This document shows positions 3,773 to 43,325 of a stretch of 43,466 nt of DNA, one piece after another. Origin of the DNA: an uncultured Methylococcaceae bacterium. GTDB taxonomy: Bacteria; Pseudomonadota; Gammaproteobacteria; Methylococcales; Methylomonadaceae. Under the pieces are notes generated by a model. That model ran no database searches. It saw only the letters and a program-made list of their open reading frames with translations, and was not told where the DNA came from. The stretch is from NCBI GenBank assembly GCA_903863905.1, contig CAIPDT010000036.1:1-43466 (forward strand), read 5' to 3'. The translations under genes and the position numbers were made by a program. Each line of letters starts with the position of its first letter. Within the stretch, counting starts at the first letter, position 1.

Positions 3773-5122
3773 ATGACTGACTCTTTAGTAATAGTATTAG
3801 GTATCGCTGGGCTAATTTTATTCGGCTTGTTTGTAATGTCTGTTTTAGTGTTTATACGAGTGAAGGATTTACTTAAGGCTCAGTTAGAAACGGGTGCAAC
3901 TGAACTCATTAAGTTACATCAACAGCATGAACTGAGTTTAAAGAATGGGATTAGTGAGATTCGTAAAGAACTGCGAGAGGTGAGTTTTGAGAATCGACGT
4001 GAACTACAAGAGTCCTTTAAAGCCTTTCAGGATACGGTGTTAAATCGGATCAGTGAAAATAACGCGGTGCAAGCACGGCAATTGAATGGTTTTGAAGTCA
4101 CGATCAAGACCGATGCGAAAGCCAATCGCCAAGAATTGGCGGAGGGTTTAAAGTCTTTTGAAACCCGCTTTATTGAAGTAAAAGATACCATCGATAAGCA
4201 ACTTAAAGCGATTCGAGAAGACAATACCCAGCAGTTATCTGAGATGCGTAAAACCGTGGATGAGAAACTGCAAAGTACCTTAGAAAAGCGTTTAGGTGAA
4301 TCTTTTAAACAAGTCAGTGACCGGTTAGAACAAGTTCATAAAGGCTTGGGTGAAATGCAAACCTTGGCGATTGGGGTGGGGGATTTAAAGAAAGTCTTAT
4401 CGAATGTGAAGACGCGCGGTATTTTGGGTGAATATCAATTAGGCAATATCTTGGAACAGATTTTAACGCCGGATCAATATTCAATGAATGTGGCCACTAA
4501 GCAAGGCAGTCAAGCGAATGTGGAGTTTGCGGTTAAGTTACCCGGTAAAGGAGATGAAAAAACGGTGTGGTTACCGATGGACTCTAAATTTCCGCTAGAG
4601 AGTTATCAGGTGTTATTACAGGCTTATGAAGAGGGTGAACCGGCTAAAATCGAACTCGCTCAAAAGGGGCTATTAAAAGTAGTGGAGAGTTTTGCTAAAG
4701 ATATTAGCACTAAATATATTGATCCGCCGCACACGACCGATTTTGCGATTATGTTTTTGCCCATTGAAAGTTTGTTTGCTGAAGTGTTGAGACATCCGCA
4801 CATGTTTGAACTGTTACAACGTAAGTATCGCATTACGATTACAGGGCCTACAACGTTGTCTGCGTTATTGAATAGTCTACACATGGGCTTTAGAACCTTA
4901 GCGGTACAAAAACGCAGCAGTGAAGTTTGGAAGGTGTTAGCTGAAGTGAAGACCGAATTCGCGACCTATTCGGACCAATTGGCCTTGGTGCATAAACAAT
5001 TAACCACCGCATCGGGGTCTTTAGAGAAACTAAAGGATACGAGGGCAAGGGCAATGACCAAAAAATTACAGGATGTATCGACCTTAGAGGTGCTTGAAGA
5101 GGTAGAACTGGTAATACGTTGA
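3773..5122 (+). CDS. rmuC: DNA recombination protein RmuC
   Basis: RmuC limits inversions and rearrangements at short inverted repeats; it has a PD-(D/E)XK-like nuclease fold. The 449-aa product starts with one membrane helix (about residues 5-27), continues with a long charged coiled coil (about 30-230) and ends with the conserved RmuC domain. The signature GILGEYQLGNIL, LPMDSKFPLESY, and FLPIESLFAEVL blocks are all visible. The open frame extends upstream to 3614, but the extra 53 residues overlap the eutB 5' end and the eutB-rmuC promoter region and are not family-like, so I use the ATG at 3773 (MTDSLVIVLG). Monocistronic in appearance. Confidence 0.93.
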   Translation: MTDSLVIVLGIAGLILFGLFVMSVLVFIRVKDLLKAQLETGATELIKLHQQHELSLKNGISEIRKELREVSFENRRELQESFKAFQDTVLNRISENNAVQARQLNGFEVTIKTDAKANRQELAEGLKSFETRFIEVKDTIDKQLKAIREDNTQQLSEMRKTVDEKLQSTLEKRLGESFKQVSDRLEQVHKGLGEMQTLAIGVGDLKKVLSNVKTRGILGEYQLGNILEQILTPDQYSMNVATKQGSQANVEFAVKLPGKGDEKTVWLPMDSKFPLESYQVLLQAYEEGEPAKIELAQKGLLKVVESFAKDISTKYIDPPHTTDFAIMFLPIESLFAEVLRHPHMFELLQRKYRITITGPTTLSALLNSLHMGFRTLAVQKRSSEVWKVLAEVKTEFATYSDQLALVHKQLTTASGSLEKLKDTRARAMTKKLQDVSTLEVLEEVELVIR

Positions 5123-38480: not shown

Positions 38481-38869
38481 TTAAAAGCTAATATAGTCGG
38501 TTTATCCCCTTAAGAAAAATGAATATATTCAATCAGATCAGTTTCCAGCGTAACTGATAGCCAATATTGCCCAGTATTGATAGAAGACAATTAAGATATA
38601 CGTATATGTCTCTCACCGTACCACCCCAATAATACATGTCTTACCGTGATACGATATCTGATTACAATGCTGATGGCCATGTAAAAAATCCCACATCATA
38701 TTTTATTATGGCAAAGATCATTAAATAATGTAATAATCCCCACCGCTGTTAAAGAGCAGCGTTAGTTACATTAAGTGCTTTTTAAAAAGATAACTATTTG
38801 AAAATGAAAAATCCTGTCAACCCCCTTTATAACTGATTGATTAATAGGGTCGAAAAGAGGGTGTGCAGA
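38481..38869. other. Region before the CRISPR array, candidate leader
   Basis: No gene is visible here. The last 60-70 bases before the first repeat (about 38800-38869) are AT-rich with a C run and are the likely leader, because the repeat orientation predicts transcription toward higher coordinates. A short CGCTG/CAGCG hairpin occurs near 38743. I cannot place a leader promoter with confidence. Confidence 0.4.
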
Positions 38870-39121
38870 GCAAGAACCACCTCCCTGATTAAGAAGGGAT
38901 TAAGACTACTCGATAATGATTTCATTTTAATTTTCCTTGGAGCAAGAACCACCTCCCTGATTAAGAAGGGATTAAGACGCAGGGGGGTGTATCGTACATA
39001 GAAACCGAACTGAGCAAGAACCACCTCCCTGATTAAGAAGGGATTAAGACGTTTTTGGTTAACCAAGGTCTTAGATCGACTTAAGCAAGAACCACCTCCC
39101 TGATTAAGAAGGGATTAAGAC
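38870..39121 (+). CRISPR. CRISPR array, 4 repeats and 3 spacers
   Basis: Four identical 37-nt repeats start at 38870, 38942, 39014 and 39085. Each begins GCAAGAACCACC and ends GGGATTAAGAC. Spacers are 35, 35 and 34 nt. Within each repeat TCCCT and AGGGA can pair around an 8-nt loop, and ATTAAGAC at the 3' end resembles the 8-nt crRNA handle ATTGAAAC of type I and III systems. This suggests plus-strand transcription. The array is short and undecayed. It lies about 800 bp from the cas genes, with an rpn gene between them. Spacer targets cannot be identified without a search. Confidence 0.96.
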
Positions 39122-39233: not shown

Positions 39234-39908
39234 ATGACCCACGATAATAGTTATAAGCTGTTATTTACTCACCCTGAAATGGTCACGGATTTACTTAAAG
39301 GTTTCGTTCACGAACCCTGGCTAGAACACTGTGGTTTCTCAACTTTAGAGAAAATGGGCGGCAGTTATATTACAGACGACATCAGAGATCGTGAAGACGA
39401 TATTATTTGGCGCATTCGTTACGGCGAAGAATGGTTATACGTATATTTATTACTTGAGTTTCAATCAGGTATCGATCATTTTATGGCTGTCCGCATTGCC
39501 GGTTATATCTCCTTACTGTATCAAGACCTGATTCGCTCTCAGAAGTTTACCAGTAAAGATTTACTTCCACCGGTGTTACCGATCGTACTTTATAATGGCA
39601 AGTACCGTTGGCACGCACCAATACAACTCAGTCAATTAATTGAGGTACACACCATGCTAGCAGAACGCGTTAAAGAATGGGTCGAAGAATGGAAAGAAGA
39701 AGGACTTCAAGAAGGACTTCAAAAAGGGCTTCAAAAGGGACTTCAAAAAGGGGAAGCTAAACTTTTCGTGCTGTTACTAAAATCTAAATTTGGTTCTGTT
39801 AATCAACAAATTCAAGATAAAGTAAATTCAGCAAGCCCTGAACTGCTTGAATCTTGGGCTGAACAAATTTTTGATGCCACATCACCAGAAGATTTATTGA
39901 ATAGTTAA
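39234..39908 (+). CDS. Rpn-family recombination-promoting nuclease, internally shortened
   Basis: This 224-aa protein matches the Rpn/YhgA-like putative transposase family, PD-(D/E)XK nucleases that promote RecA-independent recombination. The N-terminal half is intact: HDNSYKLLFTHPEMVTDLL, REDDIIWRI (D56), VYLLLEFQS (E75, Q77) and PIVLYNGKYRW. After QLIE (about residue 137) it jumps to a glutamate-rich helix and the GLQKG repeats. The usual middle segment of roughly 70-80 residues is missing, against a full length near 300. It sits between the CRISPR array and the cas operon and ends 8 nt from the convergent cas2. The catalytic residues survive, so it may be active. Confidence 0.8.
   Translation: MTHDNSYKLLFTHPEMVTDLLKGFVHEPWLEHCGFSTLEKMGGSYITDDIRDREDDIIWRIRYGEEWLYVYLLLEFQSGIDHFMAVRIAGYISLLYQDLIRSQKFTSKDLLPPVLPIVLYNGKYRWHAPIQLSQLIEVHTMLAERVKEWVEEWKEEGLQEGLQKGLQKGLQKGEAKLFVLLLKSKFGSVNQQIQDKVNSASPELLESWAEQIFDATSPEDLLNS
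39702..39749 (+). repeat. Four 12-bp tandem repeats in the rpn gene
   Basis: Units of the form GG(A/G)CTTCAA(A/G)A(A/G) encode GLQE or GLQK four times in a row. Such Gly-Leu-Gln repeats are common in Rpn proteins and can change length by slippage. Confidence 0.85.
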
Positions 39909-39916
39909 AAATACTT

Positions 39917-40228
39917 TTAATCGCTCAACAACCGATTAATCCCATCCGTAAATAACATCACATCAGCAGGAAATAATTGCCGACCTAAGGTTTTCATATC
40001 GGTATTATTAGGTAGCCGATAACAACGAATATCATCTTGAGCGGGGTGGATTAACTCCGTTAAATCTTCAAGTAAGCGCAACAGTACCTTACGCTTCATC
40101 ACCACCGTAAAAACAGAATACTGCACCGGCAATCCAGCCCTTTTTAACACCCGATGCACCCTACCCAAACGCTTTGGGTTCGCAATGTCATAAGCCACCA
40201 AATATAAATTCGCCTGATTATCAGCCAT
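39917..40228 (-). CDS. cas2: Cas2, second copy (partner of the degenerate Cas1)
   Basis: This 103-aa protein is a Cas2: ferredoxin-like start YLVAYDIANPKRLGRV with the Asp of YD, and PVQYSVFTVVM where QYSVF is the family motif. Cas2 bridges Cas1 dimers in the spacer-integration complex. It is the last gene of the four-gene cas run, 45 nt after the degenerate cas1, and converges on rpn with 8 nt between. I start at ATG 40228, with an AGAAGG at good spacing, rather than TTG 40231. It shares limited identity with the other Cas2 here, so the two are old paralogues or of separate origin. Confidence 0.88.
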   Translation of the reverse strand: MADNQANLYLVAYDIANPKRLGRVHRVLKRAGLPVQYSVFTVVMKRKVLLRLLEDLTELIHPAQDDIRCYRLPNNTDMKTLGRQLFPADVMLFTDGINRLLSD

Positions 40229-40273
40229 CAATACACCTTCTGCTTATCAGCATAACCCACTCGCCGGTCATCC

Positions 40274-41017
40274 TTAACTCACCGACAACAAGAACTGTTG
40301 CAACTTACTCACGGTACTTTTAAACAACAAATACACATGGTCTTCTCGCTGTTGATATAACAACGCCATGTCGGCAAACGGTTTATCAACATTTGCTTTA
40401 TCCGCTTTTAATAACGACGGATAAAAGTCCCACAGCAACAACTTACTCATATCCGCTGCCAAATCTAATTGCTCTGACAAGATCGCCTCATCATCACAAC
40501 CAAAATCACTGTCGGTTAACAACACCAATAACTCACTATGCACAATACCCAGCATTAATTTAACCTGATACTTACCCGCCACCGATAAATTCGACATCAC
40601 AAACTGCTCCATTTCCTTAATCGGAATCTCCCGCCAGTTGTCAAAATTCAACTTCCTCGCACAACTGCGAACCGCTAGTTTATACATCGATAAATACCAG
40701 TTTTCATAACGCTCTAAACCGTCCGCACGTGCCAACAGATCAATCAAACGTTGAGACAATGATTGCCGAGTAGTGCCCACACTCAACCATCGCGCCCTTA
40801 CATCACCGTTTTTATATAAGAATATTAAATTAATTCCGGCATCCGTACACGCCAACATGGCAGACATTGACCATTCCACCACGCCTTTACACACAATCCT
40901 AGAAATACGTGACAAAGGAAACAACTGATCCGCCTTATCAGGCACCACAATTCTTAACGCTGGCTCATCCAACACCACCCGACAGCCTGGCACCCCATCA
41001 ATATACAGTGGTCGCAT
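40274..41017 (-). CDS. Degenerate Cas1-like protein, likely inactive
   Basis: This 247-aa protein aligns to Cas1 over its N-terminal beta domain (PLYIDGVPGCRVVLDE, then SRISRIVCKG, TDAGINLIFLYKNG at about 58-71) and the start of the helical domain (RLIDLLARADGLERYENWYL). The full Cas1 upstream has about 80 residues between the RRFL segment and VCLSLGY; here about 27 remain. That removes the stretch with the catalytic glutamate. No counterpart of the FFHD histidine is seen. The C-terminal half resembles Cas1 in VKLMLGIVHSEL and a D-rich tail. It lies between two cas2 genes. It could be a structural subunit rather than an integrase. Confidence 0.75.
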   Translation of the reverse strand: MRPLYIDGVPGCRVVLDEPALRIVVPDKADQLFPLSRISRIVCKGVVEWSMSAMLACTDAGINLIFLYKNGDVRARWLSVGTTRQSLSQRLIDLLARADGLERYENWYLSMYKLAVRSCARKLNFDNWREIPIKEMEQFVMSNLSVAGKYQVKLMLGIVHSELLVLLTDSDFGCDDEAILSEQLDLAADMSKLLLWDFYPSLLKADKANVDKPFADMALLYQQREDHVYLLFKSTVSKLQQFLLSVS

Positions 41018-41026
41018 ACTTAGCCC

Positions 41027-41311
41027 CTACCCCACATAAAAAAATGAACCATCTTGCGGCAACACCGCCTTACCCAAGGTTTGAATATGTTTAGCACCCA
41101 CCAACCTCAATAAGATAAACCGATCTTCCAATGGATCAATAATTTCTCGCACCTCTTCCAGCAACAGCACCTTTTCTGCCGGTGTTAAGAAACATTCATA
41201 CGCAGACTTTTGGCCCCCAGACGCATAACCCCGAACCACATACAAGGCACGCCGCAAGCGTCGATTACAAGAAATATCATAAGCCGCAATATACAATTGT
41301 CTCTTCTTCAT
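41027..41311 (-). CDS. cas2: Cas2, first copy
   Basis: This 94-aa protein is a typical Cas2, with QLYIAAYDISCNRRLRRAL (Asp D12) and GGQKSAYECFLTPAEK, where QKS-x-E-C is the family pattern. It follows the full-length cas1 by 23 nt and precedes the degenerate cas1 by 9 nt. With Cas1 it would form the complex that captures and integrates new spacers. It is slightly longer and more basic at the N terminus than the second Cas2. Confidence 0.92.
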   Translation of the reverse strand: MKKRQLYIAAYDISCNRRLRRALYVVRGYASGGQKSAYECFLTPAEKVLLLEEVREIIDPLEDRFILLRLVGAKHIQTLGKAVLPQDGSFFYVG

Positions 41312-41334
41312 AGGGGCACCTTAAGCAAAACGGA

Positions 41335-42288
41335 TTAAAGGTTCATCGCGGTTAAGCGCTTAGACAACGCATAACCATAACGCCTTAATAACCGCCGTGC
41401 CGGCCCTGCTTTAGATTCATAATAGCCATAAAAAACCTGCCGACCGGCTTTGTTCATCTGACAACGCCCACCCACATCATCAGAGAAGTGTTCTGGCCGC
41501 AGGTGCCGATCTTTAAATAATTGCCAAATCCAGGCATCCATTAAGGGTCTTAACGGTTCCATTAAATCGCAGGCTAAAGACTCTCGACCAAAGCTTAAAT
41601 CATGAAAAAACCCTAACATGCTATCTAATCCAACCATCTGGCACGCCCTAACCGCATCATAATGTAATAAGGTATAGCCTAAGGACAAACACACATTAAC
41701 CGGATCAGGGGGTGGGCGTTTCTTTCGACCGGTAAAGTTTAAGGAATCAGCAAAGAGATGTTTATACCCACCAAAATAGGCCGCCGCAGCCGCACCCTCA
41801 TACCCTCGGATGTTTTCTAAAGCCATCACAAGATTGTCAGCCTTTAATTGGCCCATAATGCCAGTGATAGTTTCTATGGCAGACGACAATGGATAACGCA
41901 AATCCGCTCTGGCGCTTAAAGCTTCATTCAAAAAGCGTCTCTGCGCTCGGACTTTAACCAAGATTAACCAACGGGCTAAGAGTTTTCGCTGTTCCTCATC
42001 CAACATTAATTGGTATTGCGCTAAGCGCCGACCCGCATCACTGTGAGATTTAGCCGCCAACATAGCGGTGGCTTCGGTATTTCGACCTGATAAAACGATT
42101 AAGCCGATATTGCGTTCTGTTAAAGCCCCCAACACCCGACTCTCTAACTGCACATTACCTCTTAACACGATACGATCTAATAAATGTAACGGCACCGTGC
42201 CTTTTTTAACGCCTTCTTCATATAACGCTAAGGTTTGTCCATCTAACTTGATGCCCAGATTCTTCCGATCCAAATATAAACTACTCAC
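41335..42288 (-). CDS. cas1: Cas1 integrase, full length
   Basis: This 317-aa Cas1 has an N-terminal beta domain (YLDRKNLGIKLDG, then LLDRIVLRGNVQLES) and a helical catalytic domain. The three metal residues are visible: E164 in RGYEGAAAAAYF, H229 in GFFHDLSFGRESLACD, and E244 in DLMEPLRPLMD. It should be an active spacer integrase. The protein has no reverse-transcriptase or Cas4 fusion. It starts at GTG 42288 with a GAGGGG ribosome site. It is the first gene of the run cas1-cas2-cas1'-cas2', about 2.2 kb from the array, with rpn in between. Subtype cannot be read without effector genes. Confidence 0.94.
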   Translation of the reverse strand: MSSLYLDRKNLGIKLDGQTLALYEEGVKKGTVPLHLLDRIVLRGNVQLESRVLGALTERNIGLIVLSGRNTEATAMLAAKSHSDAGRRLAQYQLMLDEEQRKLLARWLILVKVRAQRRFLNEALSARADLRYPLSSAIETITGIMGQLKADNLVMALENIRGYEGAAAAAYFGGYKHLFADSLNFTGRKKRPPPDPVNVCLSLGYTLLHYDAVRACQMVGLDSMLGFFHDLSFGRESLACDLMEPLRPLMDAWIWQLFKDRHLRPEHFSDDVGGRCQMNKAGRQVFYGYYESKAGPARRLLRRYGYALSKRLTAMNL

Positions 42289-42331: not shown

Positions 42332-42387
42332 TACCTTATAATGGCAAGTACCGTTGGCACGCACCCATACAACTCAGTCAATTAATT
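42332..42387 (+). repeat. 56-bp direct repeat of part of rpn
   Basis: This stretch matches 39586-39641 inside the rpn gene at 54 of 56 positions, in the same orientation. It continues to about 42411 with codons (QPAPQSLATL) that resemble the middle of full-length Rpn proteins. It is an rpn fragment, not a complete gene, lying between the cas1 start and the lipoprotein gene. Together with the copy in rpn it brackets the cas operon. Confidence 0.85.
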
Positions 42388-42405: not shown

Positions 42406-42819
42406 TTAGCAACTTTGGGCGCTACTACTTTTCTTTAAAGTAAGCTCCCAGGTATTTACCTTCATTTTAGGGTCGTAAGTAGCAATCCCTGTACACGTTG
42501 CACTATCAAATAGACTCGATTCTAGTGGATACAAAACAATTTCAGCCAAACCTAGGGTGAAGACGTCTGCGGCTAGGTAAGGTAAAAACCTTACTTTTGT
42601 AGCTTCATGAAGACCCGATCTAAACTCAAAAAAATCTTGCTTATCACCATTGGCCGCAATATCTGTTATTTTTGGAGGCCCCAGACGCTGAATTAATTCT
42701 TGTCGTGAAGAGCCAACACCCAAGCCATTAAGATCAGCTGGGCCGTCTTGAGACAAAACCTTATAAACAGAACAGCCCGATAAACCAAGTATTGCTAAAG
42801 CGATTAATGTTTTTTTCAT
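42406..42819 (-). CDS. Small lipoprotein
   Basis: This 137-aa protein has a lipoprotein signal (LAILGLSGC, lipid Cys near residue 16) and an acidic N-terminal region. GLGVGSSRQELIQRLGPPKI follows, a pattern reminiscent of the BamE/SmpA fold (G-x-S-x-x-E-L-x-x-x-L-G-x-P). A hydrophobic stretch near 80-96 (LAADVFTLGLAEIVLYPL) could be another membrane or beta segment. I do not recognise a specific family. The ATG at 42819 has an AGGG site. It is next to the cas operon but on the same strand upstream, and nothing ties it to CRISPR function. Confidence 0.65.
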   Translation of the reverse strand: MKKTLIALAILGLSGCSVYKVLSQDGPADLNGLGVGSSRQELIQRLGPPKITDIAANGDKQDFFEFRSGLHEATKVRFLPYLAADVFTLGLAEIVLYPLESSLFDSATCTGIATYDPKMKVNTWELTLKKSSSAQSC

Positions 42820-42894
42820 GTTCAACCCTATATATTATAATTATCAATTTTTCTATGCTAAAGCGTAGCAAACGAATTTGTTTTTTATAGAGTT

Positions 42895-43062
42895 GGCAAG
42901 CTTGTCAACTTTTTGCAGTGTCGTGCTGATCCGTCCAAATTGCCCTCCCGGCTCATTTCTTTGGGTCTGCTCTTTGCTGTTATTATCTTTTCGTTCTTGT
43001 TTTTTTTTTAAACGATCTGACGAGGGTGGTTTACTGCTGTTTCGGCTATTACGTAAGCGGTT
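42895..43062 (-). pseudogene. IS66 TnpC, N-terminal fragment
   Basis: Minus-strand reading gives NRLRNSRNSSKPPSSDRLKK and then NEPGGQFGRISTTLQKVDK, corresponding to the linker and zinc-finger start of IS66 TnpC (GGQ-x-G segment). It is followed by unrelated sequence. The NSSKPPSSD part is nearly identical to the fragment at about 613-683, in opposite orientation. No functional transposase. Confidence 0.75.
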
Positions 43063-43081
43063 AATTCTTGATGTACTTGCC

Positions 43082-43325
43082 TTATTCGGCAGAAGCCATT
43101 TTTTTAAAATTCCACGGTAACAAAGCTTCAATTTTTTCAACCGTATCGGCATAAGGCAGTGCTTTGAGTATTTGAGTTAAATAGCCATAGGGTTCTAGGT
43201 TATTCGCTTTAGCAGTTTCGAGTACCTGTATCCGTGTTTCATCAACTTGGATGACAAGGCCCGTATGTTGATGCTCTCGCATGAGATTAATTAAGAGTTG
43301 AAACTGCCTCGCTAGAGCAATGATC
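43082..43325 (-). pseudogene. IS66 TnpC, internal and C-terminal fragments joined
   Basis: The minus strand carries RQFQLLINLMREHQ, then IQVDETRIQVL, which is the first catalytic-Asp region of TnpC. It then jumps directly to ETAKANNLEPYGYLTQIL and LLPWNFKK, the C-terminal end. About 180 residues between these, including the rest of the DDE core, are missing. The frame ends MASAE-stop. It is a deletion derivative, not a working transposase. Confidence 0.8.

Follow-up and report, generated by a model that had tools for sequence, protein, structure and literature searches.

A conserved, apparently non-catalytic second Cas1 in four-gene CRISPR adaptation modules and its candidate role in type III spacer integration

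The four-gene module and the Cas1' active site

The stretch of DNA analyzed here (43,466 nucleotides (nt) of contig CAIPDT010000036.1, assembly GCA_903863905.1, from an uncultured Methylococcaceae bacterium; referred to at its full length as the window) carries four adjacent adaptation genes of a CRISPR (clustered regularly interspaced short palindromic repeats) system, cas1-cas2-cas1'-cas2'. Comparison of the encoded proteins with their relatives supports the designation of the second Cas1 protein, Cas1', as a real, conserved, non-catalytic paralog of Cas1. Our results suggest that many bacteria with type III CRISPR systems have a second, site-less Cas1 which has been kept by selection and would serve as a dedicated helper subunit in spacer integration.

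All four genes are on the minus strand with intact frames, in the order that an initial sequence-only reading of the window had described. The first, cas1 (41335..42288), encodes a canonical integrase of 317 amino acids (aa) with the residues E164, H229, D241 and E244, and is followed by cas2 (41027..41311; 94 aa; PF09827 E 1.6e-10), cas1' (40274..41017; 247 aa) and cas2' (39917..40231; 103-104 aa; PF09827 E 5e-16). The gaps between them are 23, 9 and 42 nt, the last being 45 nt if the ATG at 40228, which follows the TTG start of cas2', is taken as the start. Both Cas2 proteins were above the PF09827 cut-off, and they fall on the Cas2 and Cas2' sides, respectively, of the Cas2 tree described below. 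The comparison with PF01867 that the sequence-only reading had proposed gave a strong match for Cas1 (E 4.3e-71, residues 4-291) and a weak one for Cas1' (28.4 bits against a cut-off of 22.3, E 1.1e-6, residues 10-82 only). The best PADLOC profile for Cas1' was PDLC01185 (E 1.3e-9), "Cas1, diverged variant, second in the loci", and the window agrees with that profile in having a cas1 in the same gene set, with cas2 in between. A genome search identified no further Cas1 above the cut-off and no further Cas2 in the window genome, the nearest to a third Cas1 being a weak match on contig C75 (E 0.14). The module does not belong with the reverse transcriptase (RT)-Cas1 modules, as no RT was found in a Pfam scan of the eight window proteins near it.

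Loss of the active site was apparent throughout the Cas1' family. E164, H229 and D241 are found in all 35 partner Cas1 proteins, 33 of which have E and two D at position 244, consistent with the earlier statement that Cas1 keeps E164, H229 and E244. In a profile alignment of 36 Cas1' proteins the stretch opposite E164 is a gap, there is no His, Asp or Glu column of at least 85%, and no catalytic His is conserved, a His being present in the loop at 171-185 in six of the 36 at scattered places. The position of E244 is mostly K or R and is acidic (E) only in the protein of locus L029, and D189, which is aligned with D241, is D in 30/36. The motif RPPxDPxN is present in 34/35 partner Cas1 and H-x10-16-D-x2-[ED]P in 35/35, and neither was found in any of the 36 Cas1'; GxEG is present in 35/35 Cas1 and in two Cas1' (L030 and L059), at unrelated places. 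Hidden catalytic residues in the 36 Cas1' were rejected on the basis of the profile alignment and the motifs, since apart from the two GxEG matches only loose ones were found (12 of G-x-H and six of H...D..[ED]) and these were scattered. Cas1' does not have the catalytic Glu, His and Asp/Glu of an active integrase, and the absence of the Glu region and of the His, which had been claimed from the window alone, was thus borne out across the family. The accompanying estimate that about 50 residues had been lost was correct as to the Glu region being among them and too low as to their number: by eye comparison of two predicted models, ~70 residues are gone from Cas1', comprising the E164-bearing helix (157-178) with the loop that follows and, further on, a beta-hairpin (268-278), and the loop at the place of H229 is shorter and poorly predicted.

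The AlphaFold2 models compared had a predicted local distance difference test (pLDDT) of 84.6 and a predicted template modeling score (pTM) of 0.62 for Cas1', and of 85.6 and 0.71 for the window Cas1. Homology of Cas1' to Cas1 was evident from the match of its model to the solved Cas1 TM1797 by Foldseek (E 7.9e-8). Among the PDB structure matches listed for each protein (the best 50 of 457 for Cas1' and the best 50 of 582 for Cas1) all were Cas1 or casposase, including a few under other titles which we take to be Cas1. Mean pairwise identity among Cas1' proteins is 0.47 in the beta domain and 0.29 in the alpha domain, and among Cas1 proteins 0.48 and 0.55. Conservation in Cas1' is therefore shifted to the beta domain, which is as conserved as that of Cas1, while the alpha domain is not. 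The beta domain is the Cas1 dimer interface.

Recurrence, selection and ancestry

Of the 369 genomes sampled from the class, 20 had a match to PDLC01185 (E <= 1e-5), as against none of 14 control genomes. At all 19 class loci besides the window a normal Cas1 adjoins the PDLC01185 gene and canonical Cas1 and Cas2 are both present; Cas2' is present at 17 of them, starts after cas1' and is cut by the contig end in L039, and has a frame that stops after ~50 residues near a contig end in L042. A scan of named genomes produced a further 19 loci, including those of Methylobacter KS41, Crenothrix, Methylotuvimicrobium buryatense and a Nitrosomonas metagenome-assembled genome. The comparison set consisted of 36 loci, the window included, after three repeats were removed (L067, L070 and L071, the same as L034, L029 and L036) and with the near-copies L025/L026 and L061/L062 retained. 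All four genes were identified at 32 of the 36, the incomplete ones being L039, L042, L063 (whose sequence begins at a contig edge) and L056 (in which cas1 is without its 5' part and no cas2 was called). In a phylum-wide search 29 of 398 genomes matched at E <= 1e-6; six were strong besides the window genome (E <= 1.4e-19), and the remaining 22 matched less well, for the most part in the N-terminal region. The five strong genomes that were read (all but G507) added five complete loci to the 31 of the comparison set, bringing the number of distinct complete loci besides the window to 36. Recurrence of the four genes in 36 other loci is more than chance. The question that the sequence-only reading had raised, whether the four-gene order recurs, was answered in part: the same four genes recur, but every one of the 36 loci has the order cas2-cas1-cas1'-cas2', to which the window is the exception.

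Cas1' is linked to a single group of Cas1 proteins. With the window Cas1 as query, 75 of the 369 class genomes matched at E <= 1e-10, and 21 stood apart from the rest (E <= 9.2e-57, the next being 9.8e-41); these were the 20 with Cas1' and one more, G151. The locus of G151 (L116) has cas2, cas1, a short Cas1'-like start that then, as judged by eye, runs out of frame, and cas2'. This apparent remnant of Cas1' lies at 6467-6667 of L116, between an intact cas1 and cas2'.

Within the family, a gene for a histidine kinase of 260-263 aa (HisKA + HATPase_c) was observed between cas1 and cas1' in L060 (~3930-4720) and L061 (~1355-2150), which places a sensor kinase within the adaptation operon, and L062, the near-copy of L061, has a gap of the same length between these genes. 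Long frames in G429 and G440 were considered as natural Cas1-Cas1' fusions and rejected, as by eye they look like out-of-frame extensions. A plasmid search with a query derived from L067 gave no match, and among viral contigs 28 stretches fit a pattern, none of which was confirmed.

The cas1' gene is under purifying selection: dN/dS (NG86) was 0.00-0.14 in 10/10 pairs, more distant pairs being near saturation. The tree of Cas1 and Cas1' that had been called for, built with 21 of the 36 Cas1' and five from the phylum-wide loci, placed Cas1' in a single clade (100/100) and the partner Cas1 in another (97/97), with several subgroups common to both; when the tree was built from Cas1 only, the partner clade was weak (65/69). 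Two loci (L107 and L109, repeats of L117 and L119) were counted twice in the Cas1-alone tree and not in the tree of both proteins. The best reading is that Cas1 was duplicated long ago and that one copy became Cas1'.

The Cas2 proteins are similarly divided. A Cas2 tree of 92 columns, with a bootstrap that had not settled and a midpoint root, separated Cas2 from Cas2' (92/86), and three other loci for which the DNA read showed a single Cas2 likewise had it on one or other side of this split. Three further loci have cas2-cas2'-cas1-RT modules (L117 1803-4273, L119 6266-8718 and L121 1019-3656), in which the RT was recognized by RVT_1 in L119 and L121 and by 58% identity to the L119 protein in L117. 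Each has one Cas2 on each side of the Cas2 split and a Cas1 that is sister to the partner clade (99/94), and we regard them as sister modules akin to RT-associated type III adaptation. The genomes with L117 and L119 (G015 and G056) had no PDLC01185 match, and that with L121 (G366) has Cas1' at another locus. Since Cas2' has no adjacent Cas1' in these three modules, the possession of two Cas2 genes is wider than that of Cas1', and Cas2' is not exclusive to Cas1'. The placement of the RT modules is conflicting, in that they lie outside in the Cas1 tree but their Cas2' lies inside the Cas2' of the four-gene modules in the Cas2 tree (97/83).

Type III setting, surroundings and published relatives

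The window has a CRISPR array at 38869..39121 (plus strand) with four repeats of 37-38 nt ending GGGATTAAGAC and three spacers. A putative leader (38760..38868, plus strand), whose extent is a guess, is by eye partly identical to the leader of another array, on contig C46 of the same genome, whose repeat is near-identical to that of the window. Another contig of that genome, C171, carries a type III-A locus with cas6, a CARF gene, cas10 and csm2-5. The Cas10 encoded there shares 91% identity with its counterpart in L053, a contig from Methylococcales on which an array, cas2-cas1-cas1'-cas2', cas6, a CARF gene, cas10 and csm genes stand in series. Given the effector on C171 and the intact series in L053, the adaptation module of the window has become separated from its effector, and the order of its first two genes has been reversed. 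The modules are type III adaptation modules, with Csm-type effector genes at six loci, Cmr4 genes at five and CARF genes at more.

An array with a repeat ending in the same way was present in the DNA read at 19 of the 36 loci, with a partial one in L055 and none in the other 16. The arrays have up to 120 repeats, and 462 spacers from 15 loci (leaving out L025, L033, L054, L055, L059, L062 and L067) had a mean length of 33.4 nt (standard deviation 1.6). The 18 spacers of M. buryatense 5G and the 62 of Methylomicrobium sp. wino1 have none in common, despite the same repeat, near-identical leaders and modules that are 93.6% identical over 2299 nt, from which we conclude that such systems acquire spacers. 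An array may instead have been exchanged through recombination, but acquisition of the spacers would even then have needed machinery serving this repeat. No protospacer was found when the L065 array (119 spacers) was compared with phages.

Between the array and the cas module of the window is an Rpn-family (Transposase_31/DUF4351) gene (39234..39908, plus strand; PF04754 E 2.4e-24), which is probably context and not part of the machinery. A 56-nt second copy (96%) of its stretch 39586-39641 lies beyond the other end of the module (42332..42387, plus strand), and the continuations of the two copies differ; possibly the cas module has relocated into rpn copies or between them. Next to the module there are also fragments of an IS66-type element (42853-43282; DUF6444 and DDE_Tnp_IS66_C), and upstream of cas1 is a small putative lipoprotein gene (42406-42825), relatives of which are directly upstream of cas2 in L054, L057 and L064.

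The sequence-only reading knew of no described system of this kind, a view that needs revision. The Cas1' family is already known to profile builders through PDLC01185, which matches the window Cas1' and is known as a profile name that carries no statement on site loss, a second Cas2 or function. Doubling of cas1/cas2 is itself already in print: according to the accessible text of PMC6119699, Methylobacter KS41 has "two copies of cas1/cas2" in its III-A system, and Acidithiobacillus ferrivorans YL15 has them as well. That text gives gene content and is silent on an inactive Cas1 or on how the copies work. KS41 is the source of locus L058, which bears the four-gene module. An Antarctic contig listed under Acidobacteriota, MtG-4_NODE_208 ("cas2-cas1-cas1-RT-csm3gr7...cas10"; PMC11742911), is alike, as judged from its listed gene order, in having two adjacent cas1 in a type III locus, but differs in that no second cas2 is listed and the accessible part of the report has no word on activity. 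The Cas1-solo group 1 proteins resemble Cas1', by their description in the available portion of PMC9939771, as a Cas1 clade without the full catalytic set, but stand alone outside CRISPR modules. Lactobacillus gasseri and Bifidobacterium longum also have a second cas1, which was set aside because it sits in a second CRISPR locus. In a literature search conducted mostly without subscription journals, no published account of an inactive Cas1' or its role was found.

Canonical integrases (Escherichia coli 5ds4, the I-C Cas4-Cas1-Cas2 8d3l and Synechocystis 7cr6) have the Cas1 and Cas2 folds in common with the window, whose active Cas1 matched 8d3l by sequence (E 1.3e-33) and 8d3p by structure. 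In such integrases a single Cas1 gene and a single Cas2 gene supply all the subunits, whereas the window module has two of each, one Cas1 being without its site.

The likely role of Cas1'

The Cas1-Cas2 integrase is a hexamer in which two Cas1 dimers are joined by a Cas2 dimer. It is reasonably probable that Cas1' is a dedicated non-catalytic subunit of a type III-A integrase, a role that was first proposed for it along with those of a spacer-length or orientation ruler and of a regulator, and that fits our results best. Cas1' would pair with Cas1 via the beta domain and occupy the non-catalytic position; the bridge would be made of the two Cas2 paralogs, perhaps joined as a Cas2-Cas2' heterodimer; and this built-in asymmetry may help the complex to hold the prespacer or the leader-repeat or to set its orientation. 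Catalytic Cas1a and non-catalytic Cas1b positions are distinguished in the accessible text on the Cas6-RT-Cas1-Cas2 integrase (PMC8102632), where one polypeptide takes both roles, whereas in the window the non-catalytic copy is a separate gene. Several points weigh against a subunit role. The Cas1-Cas1' and Cas2-Cas2' complexes are putative. The fits of Cas1' to solved Cas1 structures were loose (TM 0.29-0.51, root mean square deviation 12-19 A; active Cas1 TM 0.46-0.68), and these and the pTM of 0.62 make its domain arrangement uncertain. A profile of 20 Cas1' had no significant match among PDB sequences, Cas1 appearing at E 0.7 behind an unrelated chain at E 0.46. The correlation of distances was 0.93-0.95 for all gene pairs, which may reflect joint inheritance only. 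In addition, Cas1' is dispensable to related modules, since a single Cas1 beside two Cas2 is enough for the RT sisters and the gene has been lost from G151.

Other roles were considered. We regard as rather unlikely the proposal that the asymmetry is fixed by the genes, with obligate Cas1-Cas1' dimers and a Cas2-Cas2' heterodimer inserting spacers in one orientation and free of a protospacer adjacent motif (PAM), as would be needed since type III guides must be antisense to transcripts. It is unlikely that Cas1' and Cas2' form a sub-complex of their own, apart from Cas1-Cas2, with the task of capturing prespacers, trimming them or passing them on. In favor of it, every complete locus, including the window, has cas1' next to cas2', and Cas2' is clearly distinct from Cas2. 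On the other side, Cas1' has no conserved catalytic residues, and Cas2' is found without an adjacent Cas1' in the three RT modules and next to a mere remnant of it in G151, which also goes against the earlier notion that Cas1' has "its own Cas2". To a similar degree we think it improbable that Cas1' is a regulator or docking protein which recognizes DNA of the leader or the repeat or links the integrase with the type III effector or its CARF partners; the modules are in the neighborhood of III-A and III-B genes accompanied by CARF genes, and 19/36 loci have the array repeat, yet both Csm and Cmr effectors occur with the module, so there is no single effector partner, and in the window genome the effector sits on another contig. 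That Cas1' is a decaying, functionless duplicate would accord with the lost site and with the remnant of G151, but is most improbable and was rejected, given its occurrence in 20/369 class genomes, 36 aligned members of 243-268 aa, purifying selection in 10/10 pairs and a single, ancient clade. Cas1' proved to be neither disrupted in frame, nor furnished with an aligned catalytic set, nor confined to one genome, each of which had been named at the outset as damaging to the proposal.

If Cas1' is a dedicated non-catalytic subunit, its value lies in the separation of tasks. One Cas1 polypeptide plays both parts in known integrases, which makes the non-catalytic role hard to study alone. Here that role has seemingly been given its own gene, with Cas2 doubled as well, and the contacts for prespacer holding, spacer length and orientation thereby become testable. 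The relevance is above all to type III systems, the tested members of which acquire spacers with no need of a PAM (PMC9048733), and such a natural split of roles may also be of interest for DNA recorders.

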